A DNA stretch of 33,395 nt, from positions 1 to 33,395 of the IMG/VR virus record IMGVR_UViG_3300030110_000895. The stretch is one strand, 5' to 3'. Numbering within the stretch: position 1 is the stretch's first letter; each line of letters begins with the position of its first letter. Made by a program: the position numbers and the translations under genes. The notes beneath the pieces were generated by a model that searched no databases, had not been told where the DNA came from, and saw only the letters and a list, made by a program, of their open reading frames with translations. This document shows, in pieces, positions 20,066-26,931 of this stretch. This stretch comes from a virus.

Positions 20066-20509
20066 TTAGACCTCGTGCCACTCTTTACCTTCGTATAACA
20101 AAGCTTCTGCTTCTCTGCGTCTTACTAATCCTTCTAAAACTTTACCGTTAGCTTTGTTCCAACGTTTCATTTGTGGAGCCACTTCATCATATTCTTGGTT
20201 ATTTAATTTTTTTAACATAGTTGATGAATTAAGATTACCAGCACCAAGATTAAAAGTCCAAGATACCAAAGCATCAAATTGACATTGAACCATTGATCTG
20301 TGTACTGCTTTATTTACAGCTTCTTCAAACACTTCTAAATCTGTCATTAAAAGGTTTTCTGCCTCTTCTTGTGTAATAGTATCGCCTTCTTTTACATCTT
20401 TAGTAGACCCATAACCTATTGTCCATACATCTGCTGCACATTTATAGGCTTCAAGTTTACAACCCTCAAACTTTTTAATTAAATTAATACCCTCTTGTGA
20501 TATTTTCAT
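20066..20509 (-). CDS. GH24 lysozyme (endolysin)
   Basis: The start is ATG 20509 behind GGGAGAATAAT; a longer frame from 20572 overlaps the spanin gene and adds no domain. The 147-residue product is a phage T4/P22-type muramidase. FEGCKLEAYKCAADVWTIGYG supplies Glu15, Cys24 and Thr30, spaced E-8-C-5-T, the known Glu-Asp/Cys-Thr catalytic triad. The C-terminal LVRRREAEALLYEG signature is intact. There is no N-terminal signal or anchor sequence, so it needs a holin for access to the cell wall. It follows the spanin pair directly in the lysis cassette. Confidence 0.92.
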   Translation of the reverse strand: MKISQEGINLIKKFEGCKLEAYKCAADVWTIGYGSTKDVKEGDTITQEEAENLLMTDLEVFEEAVNKAVHRSMVQCQFDALVSWTFNLGAGNLNSSTMLKKLNNQEYDEVAPQMKRWNKANGKVLEGLVRRREAEALLYEGKEWHEV

Positions 20510-20510
20510 A

Positions 20511-20894
20511 TTATTCTCCCTTTTTAGTTGTAGTAACTGTCCTATAATACACAACAACGTCTTTAAGTTCACTTATATACCTCTTTAGTTCTTGCATATT
20601 GTAAGCCATAACCTCGTAATCAGGTATTGTCATAGCTAAAAATACAAGCTCTCCCTCTTGTTCTTCTATGATTGCTAGTTGTTCGTCTAAGTTTTCAGGT
20701 GTTACTACAATCCACATAGGTTCTTGCAGATTGATTTCTCTCGGCATAACAGGCTGCACTATCTGTCTATCTAGTGGTTTAGCTGTTACTTCTATTTTTT
20801 TAGTCGGTAGCAGACTGCAACTGCAAGCCATCATCAAGATCGTCAACGACAACGCTGATTTTCTCAATATCTTCCATGATGTGTTTTGTGCCAT
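20511..20894 (-). CDS. outer-membrane spanin lipoprotein (Rz1-like)
   Basis: A 127-residue protein with an N-terminal signal (MAQNTSWKILRKSALSLTIL) running into MMACSC, where Cys24 or Cys26 would be lipidated. The gene starts inside the upstream coiled-coil membrane gene in another frame, overlapping it by 95 bases. This overlapping arrangement is the hallmark of Rz/Rz1. It would anchor in the outer membrane and join the inner partner to fuse membranes in the last step of lysis. The lipobox is imperfect (Met at -3), which leaves some doubt. It is longer than classical Rz1. Confidence 0.7.
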   Translation of the reverse strand: MAQNTSWKILRKSALSLTILMMACSCSLLPTKKIEVTAKPLDRQIVQPVMPREINLQEPMWIVVTPENLDEQLAIIEEQEGELVFLAMTIPDYEVMAYNMQELKRYISELKDVVVYYRTVTTTKKGE

Positions 20895-21195
20895 TATTTA
20901 TCTTCCTTTCCATTTCTGTTGGATCAGCTAATATTTTAGCTGCTAGTTCATAGTTTTGTATAAATTGTGTATATCTATTTAGTTCTCTTTGTGCTGCTTG
21001 GCTTTTTAGAGATAGTTCATTCATTTGTGTGGTTTGTAATTCAAAGTCTGCTTGTATAGATTTTATTGCTTCTTCTTGCGTTGCTATAGCACCTTCTAAT
21101 GCTAAATTATTAGCAGCTAATGTTTTGTTTTCGTTAAATAAATAGTAAGTTGTAAAACCTAAAAACAATATTATGCCTATGAAAACTTGTTGCAT
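20800..21195 (-). CDS. inner-membrane spanin (Rz-like)
   Basis: 131 residues with one N-terminal transmembrane helix (FIGIILFLGFTTYYLF, residues 4-19) and a long periplasmic coiled coil (residues 22-105). This N-in, C-out topology with coiled coil is the i-spanin type. Its downstream end embeds the start of the lipoprotein spanin in another frame. It sits just upstream of the spanin partner and lysozyme in the transcript, as in lambdoid lysis cassettes. The family is recognised by topology and context, since Rz proteins share little sequence. Confidence 0.75.
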   Translation of the reverse strand: MQQVFIGIILFLGFTTYYLFNENKTLAANNLALEGAIATQEEAIKSIQADFELQTTQMNELSLKSQAAQRELNRYTQFIQNYELAAKILADPTEMERKINNGTKHIMEDIEKISVVVDDLDDGLQLQSATD

Positions 21196-21428: not shown

Positions 21429-21610
21429 TATACAAATCTTGATAAAACTAATGAAACTAAAATAAATGGGTAGACTGCCCATATCATATTTTCTAGTTTA
21501 TCAAAACGTTTGGCTCCATCTTCTAATCTTTTTTCAATATTAGCATATCGTATAGAACACTCTTTTTCATGTGTTTCTATTTTATTAATAGCTTCTCTGG
21601 ATGTTGTCAT
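21428..21610 (-). CDS. holin-like protein (XhlA-type topology)
   Basis: Sixty residues: a charged coiled-coil N-terminus (EKECSIRYANIEKRLEDGAK, RFDKLENM) and a single C-terminal transmembrane helix (IWAVYPFILVSLVL) with a short basic end. The order, coil then one helix, and the length match the XhlA-type holin-like proteins found near endolysins. Its start overlaps the cyclase stop by four bases. It is the best holin candidate in this cassette, although small membrane proteins at 26363-27323 are alternatives. Confidence 0.65.
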   Translation of the reverse strand: MTTSREAINKIETHEKECSIRYANIEKRLEDGAKRFDKLENMIWAVYPFILVSLVLSRFV

Positions 21611-23361
21611 ATAATTGTATAAATATTTATAGATTTTTCTTTTCCTTTTACTTTGATGCTTTTTAATTCTTTTAAAGTAATTTGTTCACTAAAGCCTTTA
21701 GATTTAATAGTATCATAACCTATTACAATATCTTCTCCAACTTCCTTAGTTGAGCTCTCAAGTCTAGCTGCAAGGTTTACCGCATCCCCTATAGCTGTGT
21801 AATCAAACCTAGTTTCACTACCCATATTACCAATAACTGCATAACCGCTATTGACTCCTATGCCTATTTCTACATCTAAATCAGCCATTTTTATTTTGTC
21901 TTGTATCTCTTTAGCACATAATACTGCTGAAGTTTCATGTCCTGGCAGGTCAATAGGAGCATTAAATATGGCCATCATAGCGTCACCTATGTATTTATCT
22001 ACCATACCGTCATATCTTTTAACGGTATCAGCTTGTATCGTAAGAGCCTTATTCATAATCTCAGTGACCTCCTCTGGTTCTAGTCTTTCAGACAAAGCTG
22101 TAAAGCCTCTTACATCTGTAAACAAGAATGTGCAGTATCTACGCTCACCACCCAGCACCAAAGAACTAGGGTCATCTTGTAGTTTTTTAACTTGTCTAGG
22201 ATCAAGATAATGTTCAAACTGTTTCTTAATCTGTTGACGTAATTTGTATTGTTGTCTAAACCGTAAATAGAATGCTATAGATCCAGCAATAAACTCTGAT
22301 AATAATGTCCAAGATACATCTACTAATAAACCTTTTGTAATAAAGTAGTAACCTAGACCACCTGTGCCAACCATTAAAAGAGTAGCTACGCTTATGCCCC
22401 AGGTTATACCAAGTAAATGTAAAGCAAACCATACTAAGGTAACAAATATAATTAACATGCCTAGTTCGGCAGCTAATGCCCAGTCTGGTATGTAAGGACT
22501 ATCTTGTATAAGTATTGATTCAGCTAGAGCTGCTTGAATTTTGTGAGGCTCTAATAAACCAACAGGCGTAGCAATTTGTGGCATGACTCCGTTAGCCGTA
22601 ACCCCAACAAACACAAACTTACCATTTACTTCCATCTCTTTTAGATTAGTTTGTGGTGTATCAACCCAGCTTATCCACTTACGGCCAAAGCTATCTGTCT
22701 TGACTGGAGGTATACCTTTTATTGATATTTCTGATATACCATTATCATTAGTTTTTATAATGTATGTTTTTACTCCAAATAAAGCTTTATATATTTGAGT
22801 GCCAAAACTTGGTATCCATTCGTTATTAGGTGTTTTGACCAAAAGAGGTATTCTTCTTACAAGTTGATCTATATCAGTGGGAGCAATAGCCAAACCCTGT
22901 AAGGTGTGATTGGATAAGAGAAGTAGGTTCTGCTTCACTCCCGTGCTTATTATACCACCATTATTGTCCCCAAGCACAACAGTCCCAGGTGTTTTAGGAA
23001 AATTACCTTTACCGTCTTCAAACATAGCTATAACAGATGGTGCGTATCCCAGAGATCTAGCAAAGTCTTCATCTCCACCCATTCTGTCTGCTTGCGGAAA
23101 AGATATAACCCAACCAACACCAAGAGCACCTTTGCCTAGTATATCTAATTGTATTTGTGCTAATCGTTTTCTTGGTAGTGGATAACCACCCTCACGCTCT
23201 ACATCTTCTTCTGTTATGTTTAGTATTGTAAAATTACCAGATTCTTGCGGTGTTTGTATAAGAGCATCAAAAGTTTTAAGCTTTAGTATTTCTGTTGGAG
23301 TACTTTGAAATAATAATGGTAAGGCTAGTATTATAACTACAGGTAATAATAGTCGTTTCAT
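21607..23361 (-). CDS. CHASE2-domain membrane adenylate cyclase (class III)
   Basis: A complete 584-residue sensor cyclase. An N-terminal helix (1-18) precedes a periplasmic CHASE2 domain (about 25-290), with FDALIQTPQESGNF and LPRKRLAQIQLDILGKGALG. Three closely spaced transmembrane helices follow at about 298-366, and then a cytoplasmic class III cyclase domain (400-584). The catalytic set is intact: metal Asp416 (FTDVRGFT) and Asp460 (DKYIGDAMMAIF), purine Lys456 and Thr522 (DYTAIGDAVNLAARLE), transition-state Asn529 and Arg533. Lys/Thr predicts ATP rather than GTP. It would make cAMP in response to a periplasmic signal. The upstream gene encodes a FecR protein, its usual bacterial neighbour. 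ATG follows that stop directly (TAAATG). A full-length, intact sensor cyclase in a phage late operon is exceptional. Confidence 0.9.
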   Translation of the reverse strand: MKRLLLPVVIILALPLLFQSTPTEILKLKTFDALIQTPQESGNFTILNITEEDVEREGGYPLPRKRLAQIQLDILGKGALGVGWVISFPQADRMGGDEDFARSLGYAPSVIAMFEDGKGNFPKTPGTVVLGDNNGGIISTGVKQNLLLLSNHTLQGLAIAPTDIDQLVRRIPLLVKTPNNEWIPSFGTQIYKALFGVKTYIIKTNDNGISEISIKGIPPVKTDSFGRKWISWVDTPQTNLKEMEVNGKFVFVGVTANGVMPQIATPVGLLEPHKIQAALAESILIQDSPYIPDWALAAELGMLIIFVTLVWFALHLLGITWGISVATLLMVGTGGLGYYFITKGLLVDVSWTLLSEFIAGSIAFYLRFRQQYKLRQQIKKQFEHYLDPRQVKKLQDDPSSLVLGGERRYCTFLFTDVRGFTALSERLEPEEVTEIMNKALTIQADTVKRYDGMVDKYIGDAMMAIFNAPIDLPGHETSAVLCAKEIQDKIKMADLDVEIGIGVNSGYAVIGNMGSETRFDYTAIGDAVNLAARLESSTKEVGEDIVIGYDTIKSKGFSEQITLKELKSIKVKGKEKSINIYTII

Positions 23362-24480
23362 TTAATCACTCTGAGTGATAGTAATTACACTATCACTACC
23401 TCCATTAACTTTGATTATATTAGAAATACCATCTTGAATCAAAATAACCGTATATGCATTATTGCCATCTAAATCTACTCTTACGCTCTCACTTACCTCT
23501 CTTCTCAGACTTATAACACTACCTGTAATAATTGCAGTTATTTGTGTGTCAGGATCTTTACCTAATAAAGTACCAGATATTTGTGTGCTGGTAGCTTGTG
23601 CTAATTGGTCTTCTTCTTCAGCTATAGCTAATGCATCTAGTACATTTAATAAATCTTCTAAATAATTTACATCAAGATAATTTATGTCTAGTTCTGTAAA
23701 CTCTAAGCTATCTTCTTTAAGGTAATCTTCTGCAAGAAAATCTATATCTAGGTCATTAAAGTCTAAAACACTATCTGTTTGTGTGCTTGTAGATTCCTCT
23801 TCTATAACTACCTCTTCTTTAGGTGGTGTAACAATAAGCATATTGTCTATAAGGTCTAGTGTAAGATCTAATATAACTGGTTTAGTAGGAGCTGACTCAA
23901 ATACGCTTACTGTAGTAGCTTCATACGGTTTATTAAGTAAAACAGTTCCCATAGCAGTAACTACCTCTATTTCGCCACTAGAAAGCCCCAGAGCGTCTGG
24001 TAGCAAAATAATTAGACTACGCCCTAGCTCATCAACTGTAGCCGTAAAATCAGTCCCACGTATAGCTATGTTAGCTGTTGGTGTTTTTAAAGTTATGTTT
24101 TGTTTATCTATACGGTTAAGATTACCTGTAATAAACCTAGCTGTACCAAGACCAAAGGTAAGGGCCATCTTTGCTTTTGACGGGTCAGGATCGTAGATGT
24201 ACTCATCAATAACTAACTCACTAAATTCTGTAAGTTTAACAATAGAGTCATCAAGAAAAGTGATAGCCATTCTGCCGTCTTTAGTAATAGCTTCGTCATT
24301 ACTTTGAATAGCAAACTTAAGGTTTGCATCATAAGGTTTATCTCTTAGGATTTGTGCTGAACCGTTTAGCTCAGATATATCTCCAATATCAACAGCTTGT
24401 GCTTGTACCTTGGTCGTTTTGAACGACACAAACAGTAGAAGCGGTAGTGCCAGATACAGATATAATTTTGAGCCAGTCAT
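23362..24480 (-). CDS. FecR-domain periplasmic protein with curlin-like tail
   Basis: 372 residues with a signal peptide ending AQA at about residue 29. A FecR domain spans about 33-195, including the diagnostic strand ITLKTPTANIAIRGTDFTAT. A strongly acidic region (235-292) has imperfect LDI(D/N)(F/Y)L repeats. The last 34 residues read like one curlin repeat: NAYTVILIQDGISNIIKV then GGSDSVITITQ, with Asn341, Gln349, Gly351, Asn354 and Gln370 at curlin spacing. FecR proteins relay periplasmic signals; here the partner is likely the adjacent CHASE2 cyclase. Start ATG 24480 overlaps the amyloid candidate by 92 bases, the length of its own signal peptide. Confidence 0.8.
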   Translation of the reverse strand: MTGSKLYLYLALPLLLFVSFKTTKVQAQAVDIGDISELNGSAQILRDKPYDANLKFAIQSNDEAITKDGRMAITFLDDSIVKLTEFSELVIDEYIYDPDPSKAKMALTFGLGTARFITGNLNRIDKQNITLKTPTANIAIRGTDFTATVDELGRSLIILLPDALGLSSGEIEVVTAMGTVLLNKPYEATTVSVFESAPTKPVILDLTLDLIDNMLIVTPPKEEVVIEEESTSTQTDSVLDFNDLDIDFLAEDYLKEDSLEFTELDINYLDVNYLEDLLNVLDALAIAEEEDQLAQATSTQISGTLLGKDPDTQITAIITGSVISLRREVSESVRVDLDGNNAYTVILIQDGISNIIKVNGGSDSVITITQSD

Positions 24481-25117
24481 TATCTAATGTACTCAGTTGT
24501 GAAATGTTAAACGTTCTTGAACCACCTGTGTGATCTAAATAAAAGTAACCACCTGCTGAAGCTGTAACTCCAGTACCAGTATATGTAACTGCGTTATCAT
24601 TACCGTCTATATCCATAAAGTTAGTTGCACCATCAATGTTAATGTTTGATGTTACTTGGTTGTTGTTACCTTGTATGATCCAATCTAAATCTAAACTTGC
24701 TGCTAGAGCAGTTGTACCTTGATTAAGTGTAAAAGTATTACTATCACCTGTAACTGCTATGTTTTGATTAGAACCATTAGAACTGTATGTATTTGTTGGA
24801 TCTACTTGGATGGTAAAAGTATTTGTATCGCCAGTAAAATTGTATAGTCCAGTAAAGTTATTAGCCAAAATGTCACCAAGAAACTTATTGGTATCACCAA
24901 TCATATTAATATCAAGTGTCATAGAATTGCCGTCTAAATCAAAAGGCGTAAGACTTCCCGCTGTAGATTGCAGACCACCTATTAAGTTTGATATACCTAA
25001 TTGTTCCAGATCTATGTTAGCTCCAGTACCAGACTGATCTACATATATTTCGTTGTCAGCCGCGAATGTTGTCAATGCACTCAGCATCACAACTAGGCTC
25101 ATCAATATCTTCATCAT
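24389..25117 (-). CDS. curlin-like secreted amyloid candidate
   Basis: 242 residues with a signal peptide MMKILMSLVVMLSALTTFAA cut near AFA|AD. Directly after it comes a canonical curlin-type pair: IYVDQSGTGANIDLEQLGIS with Gln28-x-Gly30, Asn34, Gln39-x-Gly41 and Asn44. Thereafter a motif G-(D/N)-x-N-x-(F/V) recurs: GDTNKF (74), GDTNTF (96), GDSNTF (124), GNNNQV (150) and GNDNAV (172). Asn, Thr, Gly and Asp dominate and lysine is scarce. The C-terminus has Cys230 and a terminal Cys242. Placed immediately downstream of csgF and csgG, it is the expected export substrate, either subunit or nucleator. GGAG lies upstream of ATGATG, so ATG 25114 is an equal start. Curlin by pattern, not by computed profile. 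Confidence 0.75.
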   Translation of the reverse strand: MMKILMSLVVMLSALTTFAADNEIYVDQSGTGANIDLEQLGISNLIGGLQSTAGSLTPFDLDGNSMTLDINMIGDTNKFLGDILANNFTGLYNFTGDTNTFTIQVDPTNTYSSNGSNQNIAVTGDSNTFTLNQGTTALAASLDLDWIIQGNNNQVTSNINIDGATNFMDIDGNDNAVTYTGTGVTASAGGYFYLDHTGGSRTFNISQLSTLDNDWLKIISVSGTTASTVCVVQNDQGTSTSC

Positions 25118-25955
25118 TTAATTCTACTCCTTCATTATCGTTTTGTAAAATCCAAAAACTTTTTTTATATCCTTGATTTATTATTTCTAAAACTCCACCT
25201 TCTATCGCTTTCATTAGTGCTATGGTGGATGACTCGTTTCTAGCATTACCAAGTTCTATTTCTACAAGCTCTGTACCTGCTTCTATAAACCTAAATACAT
25301 CTTCTGATTTACCGTAACTAAATATGGTTTTACGGCTAAGAACTTCTAACAATACTTCACCTGTAGCAACAGAAACCATACGCATACTAACCGTTATGTT
25401 GTCTTCTCTATACTGTACGCTATTGCCTATACCAAGATACCTAGCACCTATACCACCAGATTCTAGGTTGGCTTCATAAGATATAACAGCTCCTTCAATT
25501 AATATACCTGCAAATAATAACGGCCTAAGTGCTTTCTTTTTCTCATCTTCTGTAGCAGTTTGTTCTCTAGCACTACGAATTAACTGTCTTTCTTTTGTAA
25601 GGTTATCTAGTCCTACTCGCTCTACAACCCTGAAAAACTTGCCATCTCCTGCATGTTTGAGTGCTCTGATCAGTAATGCATTAGGTTGTTGTGTGATTGC
25701 GGTACTAAATAAAGCAAACTCGCTGTTGCTTTTTCTTTGTCCTGTTTGATCAGTAAAAGCAGTCGGATATACAGCTACAACAGGACTAACTTTAGGTATA
25801 GGTGCTTGTTTTAACTCTACAGATTGCAGATCTTGTATGTTTACAACGTTTTCAGCAGAAAACCTTTGCTCGTAGGTGTCTTCAAATTGGTCAAATATAG
25901 AACAACTAGAAAGTAAAAGTACCAATAGGTATTGTGATTTCAGTAACTGTGCCAT
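25056..25955 (-). CDS. csgG: CsgG-type outer-membrane curli secretion pore
   Basis: A clear CsgG, 299 residues against 277 for Escherichia coli. The lipoprotein signal ends LLLSSC with Cys18. The conserved core is present: LIRALKHAGDGKFFRVVERV, LDNLTKERQLIRSAREQTA, LIEGAVISYEANLESGGIGA, RYLGIG and MRMVSVATGEVLLEV, followed by FSYGKSEDVFRFIE. In E. coli it forms a nine-subunit outer-membrane channel that exports curli subunits. Of the E. coli constriction residues Tyr51, Asn55 and Phe56, only the Phe appears kept (here ALFSTA). The C-terminus is extended and acidic with two cysteines. It overlaps csgF by 50 bases and the amyloid candidate by 62. Confidence 0.95.
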   Translation of the reverse strand: MAQLLKSQYLLVLLLSSCSIFDQFEDTYEQRFSAENVVNIQDLQSVELKQAPIPKVSPVVAVYPTAFTDQTGQRKSNSEFALFSTAITQQPNALLIRALKHAGDGKFFRVVERVGLDNLTKERQLIRSAREQTATEDEKKKALRPLLFAGILIEGAVISYEANLESGGIGARYLGIGNSVQYREDNITVSMRMVSVATGEVLLEVLSRKTIFSYGKSEDVFRFIEAGTELVEIELGNARNESSTIALMKAIEGGVLEIINQGYKKSFWILQNDNEGVELNDEDIDEPSCDAECIDNIRG

Positions 25956-26418
25956 CTGCTTCCGTTATCTTAAGGGTTAGTGTTACGCCATCGCTAGTAT
26001 ACTCTATAGTATTACCTTCTAATGTTATGGTGCCAGAACTTTGTGGTGTTTCTCCAAACAGATTATTTACTAGCTGTCTTGATAACTCAGCATATACTCT
26101 TGATTCAAGATTACGCATAAACCTAGCTAATGTACTATTTTCTTTTTCTCTTTCTATCTCATCTTGTAAAGCTTTTATTTCTTCTTTAATGGTTAGTTTA
26201 CGAGTGTATTCTTGGTTTTCTATAGTAAGATAATGTGAAGAAGTGCCTATGCCATTAAAACTAGGCGACTTAAATTTGTGTACTATTTGATCTGCTTTTA
26301 CATTTATAGCAATAATACCTACAAACATAATTAGACCCATAAACATTATCCAGGCTAATATTCTAGTTTTTGCTGCTTCTTCCTTTATTAGCTCTTGTTT
26401 TGTCATTTTCTTTTTCAT
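25906..26418 (-). CDS. csgF: CsgF-like curli assembly factor
   Basis: A 170-residue CsgF relative. After a 19-residue charged start and a hydrophobic helix (ILAWIMFMGLIMFVGIIAIN) cut near VKA|DQ, the mature part begins IVHKFKSPSFNGIGTSSHYL. This matches the F-(R/K)-x-P-x-F-x-G segment by which E. coli CsgF inserts into the CsgG channel. Next come a charged coil (residues 77-98), the helix LARFMRNLESRVYAELSRQL and a beta hairpin end, SDGVTLTLKITEADGTVTEI. The coil is extra relative to E. coli CsgF. ATG 26418 follows GGAGTTAA. CsgF normally couples the pore to the surface nucleator. Confidence 0.85.
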   Translation of the reverse strand: MKKKMTKQELIKEEAAKTRILAWIMFMGLIMFVGIIAINVKADQIVHKFKSPSFNGIGTSSHYLTIENQEYTRKLTIKEEIKALQDEIEREKENSTLARFMRNLESRVYAELSRQLVNNLFGETPQSSGTITLEGNTIEYTSDGVTLTLKITEADGTVTEITIPIGTFTF

Positions 26419-26638
26419 TTAACTCCAATACAGTATTAACTTTCTCTTGTAATCGTATCATATCTTGATCTAACAGGCGAAGTTGGTCAGTTAGCCGTAT
26501 AATTGTTTTTTTCATTTCTGATACAGCAGGGTCTATAGTATTTGTAATAGTTTGCCAAACAAAGTAAACAAAGTAACCTAAACCTACTACCATTATGGTC
26601 GTAAAGCCAAACTTCTCTACTAATACAACTATGTCCAT
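26363..26638 (-). CDS. small membrane coiled-coil protein (paralogue 1)
   Basis: 91 residues: one transmembrane helix at about 9-30 (FGFTTIMVVGLGYFVYFVW) and a coiled-coil domain (40-80) ending in a basic tail. It aligns with its upstream neighbour: (M)xVxxL(V/I)EKxG, GYF(V/I)(F/Y), (N/D)xD(M/I)IR(L/I) and the closing xxLxL are shared, so the two are tandem duplicates. The type is common in marine phages and could be a holin, antiholin or pinholin partner. Start overlaps the neighbour's stop. Confidence 0.6.
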   Translation of the reverse strand: MDIVVLVEKFGFTTIMVVGLGYFVYFVWQTITNTIDPAVSEMKKTIIRLTDQLRLLDQDMIRLQEKVNTVLELNEKENDKTRANKGRSSKN

Positions 26639-26931
26639 TAATCACGTCTAGCGTCTATCTTACCGTCTTCTACAAAGTTTTCTGCTCTTGCTATTCTATC
26701 TAAGTCTGGTTTTAAATTTAAAGCACTTGATACTGAAGTATCTATTCTTATGATGTCGTTGTTCATTATTGATGCTCTTGTGATAAGCATCTTAGTTATA
26801 CCTTGTATTCCTTTAATATCACTTACAAGATTACCCATAAGTTGTTTCATAATAAGAAATATGAAATAACCCATAACTAGACCGCCTGCTATAGGTAATC
26901 CGACCTTTTCTATAAGGTCAAATACTTCCAT
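26638..26931 (-). CDS. small membrane coiled-coil protein (paralogue 2)
   Basis: 97 residues with a transmembrane helix at about 11-30 (LPIAGGLVMGYFIFLIMKQL) followed by a coiled-coil domain with IMNNDIIRIDTSVSSALNL. It shares the N-terminal VxxLIEKVG and the DIIRI block with the adjacent gene at 26363. Coupled to both neighbours by stop-start overlap. Function unknown; membrane position next to csgF and lysis genes suggests an envelope role. Confidence 0.6.
   Translation of the reverse strand: MEVFDLIEKVGLPIAGGLVMGYFIFLIMKQLMGNLVSDIKGIQGITKMLITRASIMNNDIIRIDTSVSSALNLKPDLDRIARAENFVEDGKIDARRD

Follow-up and report, generated by a model that had tools for sequence, protein, structure and literature searches.

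A diverged curlin-type repeat protein in the type VIII secretion cassette of a marine virus: a candidate fibre subunit

Phage curli modules and the cassette of the window

Wittmers et al. 2022 described a module in pelagiphages that comprises CsgF, CsgG, CsgA/B, FecR, and an adenylate cyclase, and csgE, csgC, and csgD are missing from these phages (PMC9599517). Homologues of the protein studied here have been deposited from two phages: that of pelagiphage HTVC008M as 'curlin minor subunit CsgB' (AGE60350), and that of methylophage Melnitz as 'curlin associated repeat protein' (QZI94830). Several purposes have been proposed for phage curli modules, including aggregation or capture of sibling cells, which is speculation (PMC7029224), exclusion of or shielding against competing phages, or import, which is likewise speculation (PMC9599517), and a role of the CsgG pore as a pinholin that times lysis (Buchholz et al., PMC9004378). 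Among bacterial CsgA proteins, a degenerate-repeat class has been described (PMC10192328).

The window (i.e., the whole 33,395-base marine virus record analysed here, which is a fragment) contains an intact open reading frame, with an ATG start and its stop included, that encodes a phage curlin-type repeat protein, referred to here as X. X and its neighbours are arranged as follows:

21607..23361 (-): CHASE2 + adenylate/guanylate cyclase, 584 aa (Pfam)
23362..24480 (-): exported FecR-domain protein, 372 aa (Pfam); its tail, 23365-23484, weakly resembles one curlin repeat
24389..25117 (-): X, phage curlin-type repeat protein, 242 aa (ORF, homology, motifs, selection, predicted fold)
24389..24480 (-): overlap of X and the FecR-domain gene, 92 nt; C230, C242, and the QGTSTSC tail of X, with the FecR signal peptide in the other frame
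24413..24517 (-): X C-terminal degenerate curlin repeat, aa 201-235, with invariant Q207 and Q233 (alignment to the HTVC008M end ...VDITQSGIYDN...IDIIQRD)
24575..24898 (-): X middle rungs, aa 74-181, with five G-(D/N)-x-N-x-hydrophobic arcs and Q mostly lost (motif counts)
24968..25054 (-): X N-terminal curlin repeat, aa 22-50, NEIYVDQ-SGTG-ANIDLEQ-LGIS-NLIGGLQ (best Curlin_rpt match, 24995-25057)
25058..25117 (-): X signal peptide, aa 1-20, nested in the csgG 3' end (62-nt overlap, 25056-25117)
25056..25955 (-): csgG, outer-membrane curli export pore, lipoprotein with an LSSC lipobox (PF03783, E 1.4e-45)
25906..26418 (-): csgF, pore-associated curli assembly factor (PF10614, E 3.2e-16); 50-nt overlap with csgG
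26363..26931 (-): pair of small proteins, 91 and 97 aa, each with a membrane segment and a coiled coil; HTVC008M has a homologous pair ahead of its csgF

The position of X directly after csgF and csgG, which the initial annotation had pointed out, is borne out by the Pfam matches of both upstream genes; the FecR-domain gene and then the CHASE2-cyclase gene lie downstream. Nearly every locus that is long enough to cover the cassette has this order. The pelagiphage systems of Wittmers et al. have the same order, also occur in marine pelagiphage-like viruses, and also place a single curlin protein right after CsgG. Unlike those systems, the window lineage yielded no DNA polymerase A match and no second curlin gene: neither a PolA match nor a second match to Curlin_rpt appeared in seven related contigs, including two of 57 and 60 kb. 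Since PolA matches were absent from these seven contigs, the window lineage may be a sister lineage of the phages that Wittmers et al. selected by PolA. The two contigs of 57-60 kb have terminase, portal-like, and capsid genes in common with HTVC023P.

In 58 of 65 loci of the X lineage, the FecR gene directly adjoins the cyclase gene (0 or 1 nt). Myophages have a second, longer curlin after FecR; its N-terminal domain is PA14 in HTVC008M and a different, unannotated one in others. Four of these second curlins (L082:9768-11093, L093:7769-9262, L098:7828-9276, and L147:7767-9167) have swapped N-terminal domains and a common curlin-repeat body with a C-terminal cysteine pair.

As in pelagiphages, csgE, csgC, and csgD were not found among the cassette and neighbouring proteins of this fragment when these were scanned against Pfam. 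The 91- and 97-aa proteins ahead of csgF, each of which combines a single hydrophobic segment with a coiled coil, are also present in HTVC008M and Melnitz as conserved proteins. The 'histidine kinase' of Wittmers et al. may correspond to them; a Pfam scan recognised no kinase domain. The phage CHASE2-cyclase shares 31-36% identity with its counterparts in HTVC008M and Melnitz. After the cyclase gene, at 20066-21195 (-), lie a small membrane protein with a coiled coil, an overlapping open reading frame for a lipoprotein-like product (i-spanin/o-spanin-like), and a phage lysozyme, such that the curli cassette adjoins a lysis cassette in the window and in many relatives.

Curlin-type repeats and predicted fold of X

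An IMG/VR scan for close relatives of X returned at least 80 loci, and the dN/dS of the X core is about 0.08 (67 distinct sequences; pairs among 40), which indicates strong purifying selection. Since a bare open frame is weak evidence, it is this conservation that argues for a real gene. By eye, the N-terminus is hydrophobic and signal-peptide-like (MMKILMSLVVMLSALTTFAA, then DNEIYVDQ), in agreement with the secretion initially proposed. X is low in lysine and arginine and rich in N, G, T, and D, as are bacterial curlins. Judged from its sequence, X is a real, conserved, curlin-type secreted subunit.

The published curlin kernel reads N-$-Psi-$-Psi-$-Q-X-G-X-X-N... (PMC10192328). X has one full copy of N-$-Psi-$-Psi-$-Q-X-G-X-X at its N-terminus, and the start of the protein, initially read as two half-repeats, is indeed curlin-type but consists of one complete a+b repeat (N22-EIYVD-Q28-SGTG-ANIDLE-Q39, QX10Q) and the start of a second repeat at N44. 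Taken alone, the two N-terminal QxG motifs are modestly above chance (shuffle p 0.03), and the N22, Q28, G30, Q39, G41, and N44 columns are invariant among 22 homologues. Farther along, the strict G-(D/N)-x-N-x-hydrophobic turn occurs five times (aa 74, 96, 124, 150, and 172), compared to a mean of 0.34 in shuffles of X, and five copies were reached in 0 of 2000 shuffles. The arc motif X-G-X-X-N likewise occurs 5 to 7 times versus 0.3 to 0.7 in shuffles. Since the G-(D/N)-x-N turn is the kernel arc X-G-X-X-N, both motif types of X represent one repeat from which Q has been lost in mid-protein. Thus, the five to six turns of the initial annotation exist as five copies and are part of the same repeat rather than a separate motif. 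Our data indicate that X is built from a single repeat type, canonical at the N-terminus, degenerate in the middle, where most rungs lack the glutamine ladder, and Gln-bearing again at the C-terminus. X was correctly set apart from E. coli CsgA, as it fits the 'degenerate repeat' class of bacterial CsgA (PMC10192328), with which it shares a kernel present in X as one full copy, rungs of about 22-28 aa, a predicted beta-solenoid, and T8SS partners; compared to this class, X has lost most Q, falls below the Pfam cut-off, and is not matched by a bacterial-curlin repeat model.

We found that X scores 14.7 bits (E 0.0015) against Pfam Curlin_rpt (PF07012) in a six-frame search, which is under the gathering cut-off of 20.7 bits, and hmmscan against Pfam did not list X for this family. 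Nevertheless, X is the sole Curlin_rpt match in the window and in each of the seven related contigs in such searches. The Melnitz homologue scores 26.0 bits, above the cut-off, as do second phage curlin subunits (33.1 and 21.8 bits). tblastn from X reached the Melnitz and HTVC008M homologues (3e-10 and 1e-8, respectively), a lineage profile matched the HTVC008M homologue at 1.2e-9, and the reverse profile matched the window at 1.6e-10, with reversed-sequence controls at noise. The hhalign probability of X against the second-subunit alignment is 98.8%, with both profiles composition-biased; the homology of X to curlins, as far as sequence comparison goes, leans more on the reciprocal profile searches. 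X of the window scored 0 bits against a repeat model built on curlins of Sphingomonas, Dokdonia, and further bacteria. Since direct identification from bacterial curlins fails, the link between X and curlins runs through the myophage homologues. A PDB sequence search with the X profile returned nothing meaningful; the second-subunit profile returned curlin chain 8c50 (1.2e-4). For the HTVC008M homologue, the best weak NCBIfam match is CsgB (0.0017).

The HTVC008M and Melnitz homologues occupy the orthologous position and have the N-terminal repeat NDIYVTQSG... and the arc and Gln columns in common with X; they differ in being about 28% identical to X and in ending ...IIQRD/ISQTD without the QGTSTSC tail or the cysteine pair. 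Given these annotated homologues and the same module in Wittmers et al. (PMC9599517), the initial view of X as a candidate new subunit is not supported in respect of its newness. The comparisons place it as a degenerate-repeat, diverged member of the phage curli subunits known since 2022.

AlphaFold2 with 22 homologues predicted an all-beta solenoid for X (pLDDT 74, pTM 0.71), the outcome anticipated for a stacked curlin. The top BFVD matches to this model are 'Curlin associated' phage proteins (TM 0.72-0.74, probability 1.00). Foldseek against the PDB gave no significant match, none having an E value below 0.28, although a missing match excludes nothing. The solved structures that align best to X are generic non-polymerising beta-helices such as SufB, and solved curli structures were absent among the chains aligned by VIA. 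On the AlphaFold2 model, X is predicted to have a curlin-like beta-solenoid fold, and beta-solenoids are common in proteins that form no fibres (PMC10192328).

Gene overlaps, a cysteine pair, and the FecR-domain protein

The two cysteines noticed near the end of X, C230 and C242, are present within CV(I/V)QNDQGTS(T/L)(S/G)C in 79 of 79 close relatives among the matches listed. A cysteine in the last 40 residues occurs in 0 of 76 myophage-type X copies. Since C230 occupies an outward-facing kernel position, an intramolecular or intersubunit disulfide is possible.

In 71 of 74 loci, the overlap that encodes this tail has a length of 92 nt. Within it, the X frame varies less at synonymous sites than it does in the core (pS 0.31 vs 0.54), as expected for dual coding. 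The csgF/csgG overlap is 50 nt in 68 of 69 loci and the csgG/X overlap is mostly 59-95 nt; in myophage cassettes, neighbouring genes mostly overlap by less or are separated by gaps. CsgF, CsgG, X, and the FecR-domain protein each have their N-terminal export signal encoded within the 3' end of the preceding gene, with overlaps of about 35-56, 50, 59-95, and 92 nt, respectively, mostly unlike myophages.

In the FecR-domain protein, the N-terminus resembles a signal peptide and precedes the FecR domain, which makes an iron-responsive anti-sigma role doubtful. The tail of the protein, 23365-23484 (-), reads ...YTVILIQDGISNIIKVNGGSDSVITITQSD, with both Gln invariant among 20 homologues; Y343, Q349, I366, I368, and Q370 are its conserved positions. 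Scored as a curlin repeat, the tail beats shuffled controls in 93% of lineage copies and 18% of myophage copies, and hhalign gave 1 to 4%. We regard a curlin-like repeat at the end of this protein as possible and treat it as a lead. We found no published description of the lone curlin gene, the 92-nt overlap that holds the cysteine pair and the FecR signal peptide, or the curlin-like FecR tail.

Candidate roles of X

We consider it probable that X is the fibre subunit of a phage type VIII secretion (curli) module, exported by CsgG/CsgF and stacking into curli-like fibres. The gene and its order, its conservation, its signal peptide, its homology to Pfam-recognised phage curlins, and the predicted solenoid are directly supported. 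Its export route, polymerisation, and extracellular location are inferred by analogy with the curli pathway. Sec would first carry X into the periplasm, where it would stay unfolded until it crossed the host outer membrane by way of the phage CsgG/CsgF pore. Outside, X would adopt a beta-solenoid fold with about eight rungs, and such solenoids would stack at their ends to give curli-like fibres on the infected cell. Since X is the only curlin-type subunit found in the lineage, it would have to be the main subunit, and nucleation could be provided by X itself, CsgF, or the FecR-domain protein. Virion tail-fibre identity was set aside given the signal peptide and the operon.

The Gln ladder stabilises curli stacking. 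Its loss from the degenerate middle rungs of X favours a curlin-derived beta-solenoid that does not polymerise and acts as a secreted or surface monomer, locked by a C230-C242 disulfide, in the role of adhesin, cap, or shield. The conserved cysteine pair and the 7-aa tail right after the last Q could cap the open edge, and the nearest solved folds are non-fibrous beta-helices. We nevertheless think a monomer unlikely, as the canonical kernel is kept in the N-terminal repeat, strict linkage to csgF-csgG remains, and a curli fold is likewise predicted for bacterial CsgA of the degenerate class (PMC10192328). Quite unlikely, in our view, is that X is a minor, CsgB-like nucleating subunit whose bulk fibre protein is encoded elsewhere, as is the second curlin of myophages. 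The annotation and NCBIfam match of the HTVC008M homologue, together with that longer curlin after FecR, speak for a nucleator; the abutting FecR and cyclase genes and the lack of a second Curlin_rpt match in the seven related contigs speak against it.

The sub-threshold Curlin_rpt score of X, its 0 bits against the bacterial-curlin model, and the failure to find csgE and csgC among the proteins scanned count against a fibre subunit as well. Fibres are also questioned by the report that Melnitz-infected cultures showed no clumping (Buchholz et al., PMC9004378). These authors proposed the pinholin role, and the spanin-like and lysozyme genes that follow the cassette here and in many relatives fit a module in which the CsgG/CsgF pore helps time lysis, with X as plug, partner, or residual passenger. 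We hold this to be very doubtful: purifying selection on X is strong, and virions are far too large for the CsgG channel (PMC7029224). Furthermore, the lysis-timing proposal rests partly on the statement that csgA/B are missing from Melnitz (PMC9004378), which is contradicted by two Melnitz proteins that pass Curlin_rpt and by the GenBank annotation. X bears on a published disagreement between csgA/B said to be absent and two curlin-repeat proteins recognised by GenBank and Pfam.

If X does form fibres, the virus gives one of the ocean's simplest free-living cells a fibre system absent from the host, and aggregation and superinfection would be altered. As a compact candidate amyloid subunit that has lost most of its Gln ladder, X would also help in working out which part of the curlin motif polymerisation requires. 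A more specific version, which we consider speculative and rather improbable, is a viral curli system without CsgB, in which disulfide-closed X is anchored or nucleated by a FecR protein with its own curlin repeat, the two genes being locked by their 92-nt overlap.

The number of rungs varies among homologues of X, and two with extra repeats reach about 370-390 aa (L168:3602-4711 and L169:1589-2749). The contigs that carry them were binned as Rhodobacteraceae and Pelagibacter MAGs and are probably phage DNA. A genome scan with CsgG returned mostly phage-like contigs binned in MAGs, together with a few genuine bacterial curli loci.
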